Of a stretch of DNA of 36,906 bases, positions 35,617 to 36,906 are shown one piece after another. Below the pieces are notes generated by a model, which saw only the letters and a program-made list of their open reading frames with translations, was not told the DNA's origin and did no database searches. How positions within the stretch are numbered: position 1 is the stretch's first letter; the number at the start of each line of letters is the position of its first letter. Source of the DNA: Haloquadratum sp. Its GTDB lineage: Archaea > Halobacteriota > Halobacteria > Halobacteriales > Haloferacaceae. Made by a program: the position numbers and the translations under genes. The DNA is taken from positions 1-36,906 of the forward strand of contig JAQCNF010000031.1 in the NCBI GenBank assembly GCA_028275165.1. Direction: 5' to 3'.

Positions 35617-35814
35617 TCAAAAATCGTGTTCAACAGTATCTTGATCCGCTTTTTGAATAATTATCTTTCCGTCACGCACCCGCACGAACACTTCGTCGCC
35701 AATCTCCATCCCTGCAACTGCGAGTTCGTCTTCGTGTAAGTTAACATGGACGTTGTGATACTCGCCCTCATCATCTTTCGCACCACTCGGACTAAGCTTT
35801 TTTTTCCGAACCAT
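35617..35814 (-). CDS. AbrB/SpoVT-like small DNA-binding protein
   Basis: A 65-residue protein. A basic N-terminus (MVRKKKLSPSG) precedes a swapped-hairpin-like beta fold: HNVHVNLHEDELAVAGMEIG, then DEVFVRVRDGKIIIQKADQD. This is the haloarchaeal variant of the AbrB/antitoxin fold, which binds DNA as a dimer. No toxin gene is next to it; the neighbour 43 bases downstream is pyrD, so it may be cotranscribed with pyrD. A perfect dyad overlaps its own start codon, which suggests autoregulation. It is not large enough for any additional domain. Confidence 0.75.
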   Translation of the reverse strand: MVRKKKLSPSGAKDDEGEYHNVHVNLHEDELAVAGMEIGDEVFVRVRDGKIIIQKADQDTVEHDF

Positions 35815-35854: not shown

Positions 35855-35916
35855 AGTGTTGTTTACTGTATGTTATAATTCGTTTAAAAGTTGGAAGCTG
35901 CTTCGTGAGGACAAGG

Positions 35917-35989
35917 TGTCGCGCGGTCGGAGGTCGACCGGTCATCCTCCGCTGTGTGCGGCTAGTCCCGGTCGGATGATCTCCGCGCG
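35917..35989 (-). ncRNA. Candidate H/ACA-type pseudouridylation guide RNA with kink-turn
   Basis: Read 5' to 3' on the minus strand: lower stem CGCGCGG (35989-35983); pocket strand AGATCATC (35982-35975); upper stem CGACCGG (35974-35968); GA; C-stem CU plus CCGC closed over an ACACA loop by GCGG and AG; three-base bulge GAU; GA; upper stem CCGGTCG (35941-35935); pocket strand ACCTCCGA (35934-35927); lower stem CCGCGCG (35926-35920); ACA (35919-35917). All stems are perfect except a two-base bulge. The bulge ending in U next to tandem G-A pairs is a kink-turn for L7Ae. The distance from upper stem to ACA is 15 nt, within the 14-16 rule. The target is not identified. It lies 48 bases past the MC1 stop, perhaps processed from that 3' UTR. 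Confidence 0.7.
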
Positions 35990-36037
35990 TTCTCTACTTT
36001 TTTCCACTTCACTCAAAGAAGCATCGAAACGATTAGT

Positions 36038-36367
36038 TCAGGACTCGAGATGTTCAATTCCCTGCTTTGAGACATTCCCTCTCGTGATCGAAGATACCTC
36101 GTCTTCCATCCACTCGGGTTTGTTATCTGGGGCGTCGTCCACCCATGCCCATGCATTGTACACGTGTACACGATCCGTCCCACGTTCTAAAAGCCGAATC
36201 TCTGTTGGGTCCGCTTTCGCTTCGTTCTCTGAATCATACCGCTCATATCCATCCAATCGGCGCGCAGCTTTTAGTGCGGCTTGTCGCGGCATACGGCCTG
36301 TGAATTGCGCTGTTCGCTCACCGTCTTCCATTTTGACAAAGTTTCGTTTGCCGTCCTCACGTACCAT
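36038..36367 (-). CDS. MC1-family non-histone chromosomal protein
   Basis: A 109-residue DNA-bending chromatin protein. Family blocks are RNFVKMEDGERTAQFTGRMP, RQAALKAARRLDG, EIRLLERGTDRVHVYNAWAW, and DAPDNKPEWMEDEVSSITRG, in the same order as in Methanosarcina MC1 (about 93 residues); the haloarchaeal copy has a longer loop (YERYDSENEAKADP) and more acidic residues. The Trp, Arg and Lys of the DNA face are largely kept. The ATG at 36367 gives MVREDGKRNF. On the minus strand a TATA-like tatattta lies about 40 bases upstream and an aggag 10 bases upstream of the start. The 3' side leads into the candidate H/ACA RNA. Confidence 0.93.
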   Translation of the reverse strand: MVREDGKRNFVKMEDGERTAQFTGRMPRQAALKAARRLDGYERYDSENEAKADPTEIRLLERGTDRVHVYNAWAWVDDAPDNKPEWMEDEVSSITRGNVSKQGIEHLES

Positions 36368-36649: not shown

Positions 36650-36906
36650 TTAACGTTGGCCTTGAACTCTCTCTGTATTGGGGTACATTGATTCTCTCAG
36701 TGGTCTGAAAGACGGAGGGTTTATACCTCCCAATACAATATTTTCAGATCCGAAAGAAATGAGGATTTCACCCCTCCGGTCCTTCCGGACAGATGAAATC
36801 TGATGTTCGCCTTGACGATTCGGTGACTCCTGTCTGGTGTCACCTGAATCATTTGGACCATGCAATGCCAACTTGGTGACCAACTCTTTTCGTTGGTCCC
36901 GCCACC
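36650..36906 (-). pseudogene. Probable C-terminal tail of a TnpB / IS200-IS605 end (cut by window edge)
   Basis: The minus-strand frame is open from the window edge to a stop at 36650 (QGEHQISSVRKDRRGEILIS, then SENIVLGGINPPS). I associate this kind of variable tail with haloarchaeal TnpB proteins, but the zinc finger lies beyond the edge, so the call rests on memory of tails only. Short hairpins GGAGG-gtttata-CCTCC (about 36715-36731) and TCCGG-tcct-TCCGGA (about 36776-36790) fit a degraded element end. Whether the upstream part is intact cannot be seen. Confidence 0.45.

Follow-up and report, generated by a model that had tools for sequence, protein, structure and literature searches.

A conserved hairpin beside the MC1 gene and the rRNA operon of haloarchaea is a probable single-hairpin H/ACA guide for a uridine of 23S rRNA

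The hairpin behind the MC1 gene

The window, by which we mean the whole stretch of 36,906 nucleotides of Haloquadratum sp. that was analysed (contig JAQCNF010000031.1), carries the gene for the MC1 chromosomal protein on the minus strand near its right end (36038..36367; Pfam PF05854, E 6.4e-39, and synteny). Downstream of this gene, on the same strand, lies a hairpin followed by an ACA box, about 73 nt in all (35917..35989), within a match to our covariance model at 35907-35995 (E 1.5e-15). A sequence-only reading of the window had placed an H/ACA guide RNA candidate in the 3' region of the MC1 gene; the position is right, but the RNA lies entirely past the MC1 stop codon (36038). To the right of the MC1 gene, the plus strand carries a pre-16S rRNA leader (36721..36867), identified by blastn to the regions upstream of 16S in four other loci (L020, L018, L043 and L171). 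To the left, a dihydroorotate dehydrogenase gene is separated from the guide RNA by a 65-aa open reading frame with a sub-threshold MazE antitoxin-like match (35617-35814, minus strand).

The anatomy that had been described for the minus strand, with two 7-bp stems, an ACA directly after the lower stem, tandem G-A pairs, a GAU bulge and an apical stem, is present in the sequence. The lower stem is formed by CGCGCGG (35983..35989) and CCGCGCG (35920..35926) and the upper stem by CGACCGG (35968..35974) and CCGGUCG (35935..35941), all on the minus strand; both stems are seen in the sequence and in alignments of 22 and 94 copies. Above them, the kink-turn has the GA of the tandem G-A pairs on its 5' strand (35966..35967) and, on its 3' strand (35942..35946), a GAU bulge (35946-35944) followed by GA (35943-35942), and it is topped by an apical stem and loop (35947..35965). 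The pocket between the stems was first read as two strands of eight nucleotides, AGAUCAUC (35982-35975) and ACCUCCGA (35934-35927) on the minus strand, with a spacing of 15 to the ACA. This is true of the letters of the window, where C35975 faces A35934; in the relatives, however, these two positions mostly form a standard pair that closes the pocket, which makes it one position shorter on each side and puts the ACA box (35917..35919) 14 nt past the closing position. What remains of the pocket holds two guide sequences with predicted partners in 23S: UCAU on the 5' side (35976..35979) for the GUGA immediately 3' of UC, and CCUCC on the 3' side (35929..35933) for the GGAGG immediately 5' of the target U. 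The end of the transcript is probably a few nucleotides past the ACA box.

RNA folding of a 96-nt stretch gave -35.5 kcal/mol for the minus strand (z -2.50), with a value at least as good in 5 of 200 shuffles, and a different fold for the plus strand (z -1.40). Taken alone, the hairpin fold is only modestly unusual. No Rfam 15 family reached its gathering cut-off in the window, and a permissive Rfam scan of 301 bases returned only RydC, on the other strand and at chance level (E 1.6).

Conservation of the family and its genomic setting

A nucleotide search of 60 genomes gave matches with E <= 0.1 in 38 of them, many of the weak ones resembling coding sequence, and the whole hairpin was visible in about twenty of these matches. 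A search of related haloarchaeal genomes with a covariance model, which the sequence-only reading had suggested as a check, detected the RNA in 285 of 392 genomes of the order Halobacteriales and in 79 of 95 genera, nearly always as a single copy; among the good-quality genomes of the order, 260 of 344 were positive. Genome G159, of genus g36 (Halorussus by one 16S comparison), has two equal-scoring copies about 4 kb apart (C3:437749-437837 and 441967-442055).

In a plain MAFFT alignment of 22 copies, 90.5% of the cells are paired, 9 of the 21 pairs are changed on both sides, and the covariation score is 0.232, compared with 0.142 (sd 0.013) for shuffled and at most 0.073 for slid controls. 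A larger alignment holds 94 copies, a chosen subset of the 285 positive genomes with duplicates omitted; here 18 of the 21 pairs are changed on both sides, a figure biased towards the model because the alignment was fitted to it. Compensatory changes of the kind that had been anticipated for relatives are thus present in both alignments, and stem pairing, kink-turn and ACA are kept in close relatives. It is this conservation across the order, together with a covariation above all 500 shuffles and all slid controls, that sets the hairpin beyond chance. The alignment of the 94 relatives also bears out the minus strand as the coding strand, with its kink-turn and ACA, and supports the H/ACA guide architecture.

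In 91 of the 94 copies the upper stem is followed after exactly 14 nt by an ANA box (ACA in 65, AUA in 26), the other three reading otherwise. The position that closes the pocket is a standard pair in 21 of the 22 copies (C-G in 16, U-A in 3, G-C in 2) and in 76 of the 94, with C-A in 10. The kink-turn, judged by eye in the alignments, comprises two mostly canonical pairs, a 3-nt bulge and tandem G-A pairs, with exceptions such as L005 and L162, which have CA instead of GA. Pocket counts, which use all 94 copies, show a 3' guide that is mostly Y-Y-U-Y-Y and a 5' guide Y-A-Y; C and U replace each other opposite a predicted G, which accepts either, and the two positions opposite A and U are nearly fixed. 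With regard to the 10/5/9 rules, the 3' guide of 5 nt and the 14 nt to the ANA box fit, and the GA stem counts 10 on its 3' strand; departures are a mismatch or a bulge within this stem in many copies, pair 28-103 being unpaired in 40 of the 94, and an unpaired innermost lower-stem pair in 58. One member, L141:1501-1620 (plus strand), has about 30 additional nucleotides in the apical stem-loop, outside the functional core.

An exact-pattern scan put names to 39 contigs, all 39 of which match the model; the scan needs the exact pattern, so the absence of a name is uninformative. Eight named carriers are Haloferax (gibbonsii, mucosum, massiliensis, marinum, marisrubri, sulfurifontis, denitrificans and sp. 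Q22); the others include Haloquadratum walsbyi J07HQW2, Halobellus, Halococcus, Halogeometricum and Halonotius.

Of 96 loci, 84 have the MC1 gene upstream of the hairpin in the same orientation, and six of the remaining twelve offer fewer than 650 bases of upstream sequence; the distance between the two varies from 41 to 308 nt. The 16S gene is visible in 59 loci and in 57 of them lies downstream on the strand of the hairpin; in the other two, L018 and L020 (the latter from H. walsbyi J07HQW2), MC1 and the guide are inverted relative to 16S. Judged from its right end, which matches the pre-16S leader of such loci, the window is of this inverted type, and its rRNA operon presumably runs off the right end of the contig, divergent from MC1 and the guide. 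The right end of the window is probably an assembly break at the rRNA operon.

A profile of the 50 bases before the hairpin, built from the 94 copies, shows preferences for C-G-A-n-A at -36 to -32, T at -27 to -25 in 67-72% and A at -9 in 76%. By extension from this profile, 36014..36030 (minus strand) in the window is a putative promoter, with a BRE-like and a T-rich element about 26 nt before the hairpin. A TATA-like box at this distance would place the transcript start at the hairpin. From these upstream sequences, the guide RNA is probably its own transcription unit rather than part of the MC1 mRNA.

There was no model match in 107 genomes, 60 of which were searched again with laxer filters, 40 of these being picked by elimination from a list. 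The best matches of this laxer search were L084 (E 0.0016) and L260 (E 0.013). By eye, L260 is a diverged true copy of the guide RNA. L084:1501-1590 (plus strand, genome G024) is a different H/ACA-like hairpin with AACCC in its 3' pocket, a kink-turn and an ACA, and it is perhaps the known guide of site 2621. Genus g38 is Haloarcula, the 16S of eight genomes being up to 93-99% identical to that of H. sinaiiensis; whole-genome model searches gave no match better than E 0.16 in 13 of its genomes and a 14th genome gave none at the 0.01 level. Of nine weak loci in Haloarcula (E 0.16-3.8), the three inspected (L264, L267 and L280) do not form the family hairpin, and a motif scan of seven Haloarcula 16S loci gave a single chance-like match (L296). 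In genus g13, which is Halorubrum (the 16S of G028 is 98.2% identical to that of Halorubrum sp. BOL3-1), no match better than E 0.088 was found in 15 genomes. Since the RNA is a single copy at one operon, the plasmid-borne rRNA stretches of two Haloarcula, one Halorubrum and one Halomicrobium are uninformative.

A predicted partner in domain V of 23S rRNA

The pocket of the family, with CCUCC on its 3' side and YAY on its 5' side, predicts a target of the form GGAGG-UN-GUG. The sequence-only reading had also predicted a target from the pocket but could not place it, because the pocket had been read one pair too long; a scan of rRNA with the 8+8 pocket gave no consistent site and was dropped once the relatives showed the closing pair, whereas the shortened pocket leads to one 23S site. 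We scanned the 23S, the 16S and 46 tRNA segments of one genome (G014), the tRNAs being oriented by their T-arm motif and not by annotation. The site in this 23S, AAAGGAGG-UC-GUGAGCUGGGUUUAGACC, is fully paired by 88 of the 94 guides, and each other of the 1823 uridines by none; six guides lack full pairing at the site. The target U lies 14 nt before pseudouridine 2621 (E. coli 2586), which by our own count makes it U2607 of H. marismortui, 2572 of E. coli and U2591 in H. volcanii numbering. The site is in the peptidyl-transferase region of domain V.

When the two informative pocket columns were placed in all 56 ways, only the real placement had any site paired by at least 80 guides, the best of the others getting to 22. 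When the columns were permuted, 2% of permutations gave 88 or more, a figure close to the share of permutations that are equivalent to the real order (1/56). Where the pocket departs from its consensus, the pairing with 23S is kept in 54 of 62 cases. The guide of the window would form 5 + 4 bp with the site, the target sequence being that of relatives, as the assembly of the window has no 23S match. The 5' guide side of the haloarchaeal RNAs forms only 3-4 bp (-0.2 to -0.8 kcal/mol). The 23S site is unchanged in 10 genomes without the RNA, so that co-loss of guide and target lends no support to the pairing.

Searching 148 genomes of the phylum with the model gave 17 matching genomes, of which only G413 (E 6.3e-5) falls outside the order. 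Another outsider, G422, belongs to the family of G413; it was missed under strict filters and matches with E 6.5e-10 over 29 kb, upstream of an rRNA operon. In both genomes the RNA ends 184-251 nt before the 16S gene and is on its strand. A further 39 stretches upstream of rRNA operons of other methanogens, chosen by hand (36 from other genomes and three from other operons of the two positive genomes), held no convincing RNA, the best value being E 0.12. Outside the haloarchaea, the loci seen have a 23S site of GGAGA or GGGGA (AGGGA in L366) before an unchanged UC-GUGAGC. The guides of the two outsiders, UCUAA and GCUCAU, face a site GGAGA-UC-GUGAGC with a pairing of 3+6: opposite the changed A stands the guide U that adjoins the target, and the 5' guide has a longer duplex, of six pairs, with GUGAGC. 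In the 3' guide the two outermost positions are unpaired, which leaves only 3 bp there (+0.6 kcal/mol).

Of 200000 shuffled guides tested at this site, which had been fixed beforehand, 19 match or exceed the 3+6 pairing and 145 arrive at a total of 9. When one outgroup rRNA set was scanned openly, the site shared second place among 1039, and 683 of 2000 shuffled guides scored 9 or more at some position. The ranking of targets in a single outgroup genome is not decisive, while the test at the pre-set site is.

Known guides and the interpretation of the family

Haloarchaea are held to have very few pseudouridines in their rRNA; in H. volcanii they reportedly lie only at 1940, 1942 and 2605, and we take the HP1/HP2 guide of this species to be the RNA named sR-h45. 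According to PMC2584109, haloarchaea have two H/ACA hairpins (HP1/HP2), for sites 1956/1958 and 2621; H. marismortui 23S has three pseudouridines, at 1956, 1958 and 2621; and for H. salinarum one extra site is cited, 2606 (2580), not 2572. This "2606 (2580)" misfits the offset of 35 of the other sites in the same text, which gives 2571. A comparison with pseudouridine maps had been proposed by the sequence-only reading; the site is not known to be on the published haloarchaeal lists, which speaks against it.

The H. volcanii HP1/HP2 hairpins (Hvo1, Hvo2a/b in PMC4652768) resemble the new family as haloarchaeal H/ACA motifs with a kink-turn; their fold is of the 10/5/9 type, to which the family conforms in part. 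The same paper gives 14-15 nt to the ANA box and a 10/5/9 or 10/6/9 fold for productive guides. Hvo1 acts close to the new site, in domain V, site 2621 being 14 nt downstream of it. HP1/HP2 guide 1956/1958 and 2621, whereas none of the 94 guides of the new family pairs fully at these positions. Pyrococcus Pab91, Pab35, Pab40 and Pab105 (Rfam HgcE/F/G) share the architecture with the new family and follow the 10/5/9 rules, which the family fits in part, but the targets named for Pyrococcus in the text consulted (L1932, L2016, L2672 and L2685) differ from the equivalent of the new site, about L2689 by offset. In G505, which we take to be Archaeoglobus fulgidus, the equivalent of the new site is near 2624 and that of E. 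coli 2586 near 2638, in a numbering whose 23S start was estimated from a conserved motif. These positions rule out that the A. fulgidus targets L2601 or L2639 are the new site renumbered; L2601 and L2639, with S1004 and S1167, are the targets cited for Af46, Af4 and Af190, whose ANA box, kink-turn and guide-target logic, as presented in PMC4652768, are common with the new family.

The literature searched, with most subscription papers outside its reach, held no earlier description of this guide RNA. PMC5496347 reports that the H. walsbyi transcriptome yielded no H/ACA RNAs, most features below 150 bp being unmappable there, and PMC4652768 mentions 106 new descriptor matches in H. volcanii intergenic regions, described as less than 30% conserved (data not shown). 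The guide family may or may not be among these 106.

We propose that the family is a single-hairpin archaeal H/ACA RNA, with a probable promoter of its own, that sits beside MC1 and the rRNA operon and guides the pseudouridylation of the U in 23S GGAGG-UC-GUG, and we consider this reading as a whole likely. Its parts differ in strength: the H/ACA identity of the RNA is nearly certain, the 23S site is very likely the partner of the guide, and a stoichiometric pseudouridine at the site is somewhat less likely than the pairing itself. The conserved structure, ANA box, kink-turn, pocket, unique rRNA match, re-pairing in the outgroup, synteny and promoter-like element were all computed here, and transcription of the guide, protein binding and 23S modification are what they suggest. 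According to this reading, the guide RNA would be transcribed from its own promoter just behind MC1, beside the rRNA operon. L7Ae would join at the kink-turn and Cbf5, Nop10 and Gar1 would complete the particle. The guide would hold 23S rRNA through the CCUCC:GGAGG and YAY:GUG duplexes, presenting the U of GGAGG-UC-GUG to Cbf5 for conversion to pseudouridine.

Several observations sit poorly with a modification guide: Haloferax species other than H. volcanii carry the RNA, yet the sites reported for H. volcanii do not include this one; H. salinarum is cited with a different extra site; each lineage has one side of the duplex that pairs weakly; and the 23S target is identical in the haloarchaea examined that lack the RNA. 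On the side of the guide reading, the ANA box at 14 nt has the spacing of the productive 10/5/9 fold (PMC4652768), and Haloarcula, in which no copy was found, is the genus of H. marismortui, whose list in PMC2584109 lacks the site.

With these points in mind, the RNA could be a genuine H/ACA particle that pairs at the 23S site mainly as an assembly chaperone, or that makes pseudouridine partially or conditionally, in the manner of snR30. RNAs of the snR30 type are needed for processing and not for modification, and such a role would suit pseudouridine lists on which the site is not known to appear, the short half of the duplex, and the rRNA operon as the gene's neighbour in 57 of 59 visible cases. 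The catalytic geometry is nevertheless retained, with the ANA box at 14 nt in 91 of 94 copies, the kink-turn and an unpaired UN, and the most complete map cited, that of H. marismortui, comes from a genus in which no copy was found; we judge this alternative unlikely. The target might instead be GGAGG-UN-GUG in another RNA, such as a tRNA outside our set, an mRNA, SRP RNA, RNase P RNA or another non-coding RNA, as the scan was limited to 23S, 16S and 46 tRNA segments of one genome. Against this stand the 23S site as the sole full match among the RNAs scanned and the outgroup guide, which follows the outgroup 23S where it differs beside the U and adds three pairs on the opposite flank, and a different target seems to us highly improbable. 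Still less credible is that the hairpin is no guide at all but a structured 3' UTR or terminator of the MC1 mRNA, or a DNA element of the rRNA promoter region. Its place behind MC1, in the same orientation, in 84 of 96 loci would fit, but the distance to MC1 ranges over 41-308 nt with a promoter-like element within the gap, the covariation is of the RNA-helix type, the pocket tracks 23S rRNA, and the hairpin stays with MC1 where both are inverted relative to 16S (L018 and L020).

Should the guide reading be true, haloarchaea, Haloferax included, would have a further pseudouridine near the catalytic centre, beyond those of HP1/HP2, and the guide-target pair would be open to test by the deletion of one gene. 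The conserved order of MC1, guide and rRNA connects the gene of a chromatin protein with ribosome biogenesis. Haloarcula and Halorubrum, apparently without the RNA and with the target unchanged, offer a natural contrast. There is a small chance that the guide, tied as it is to MC1 and the rRNA operon, is mainly an assembly factor or a conditional modification switch, in which case carriers and non-carriers such as Haloarcula and Halorubrum would differ in ribosome maturation at an otherwise invariant site.

As a separate observation, locus L340, from a genome of the order (G045, family f11) with no model match, has the 23S site GGGCG-UC-GUG instead of GGAGG-UC-GUG.
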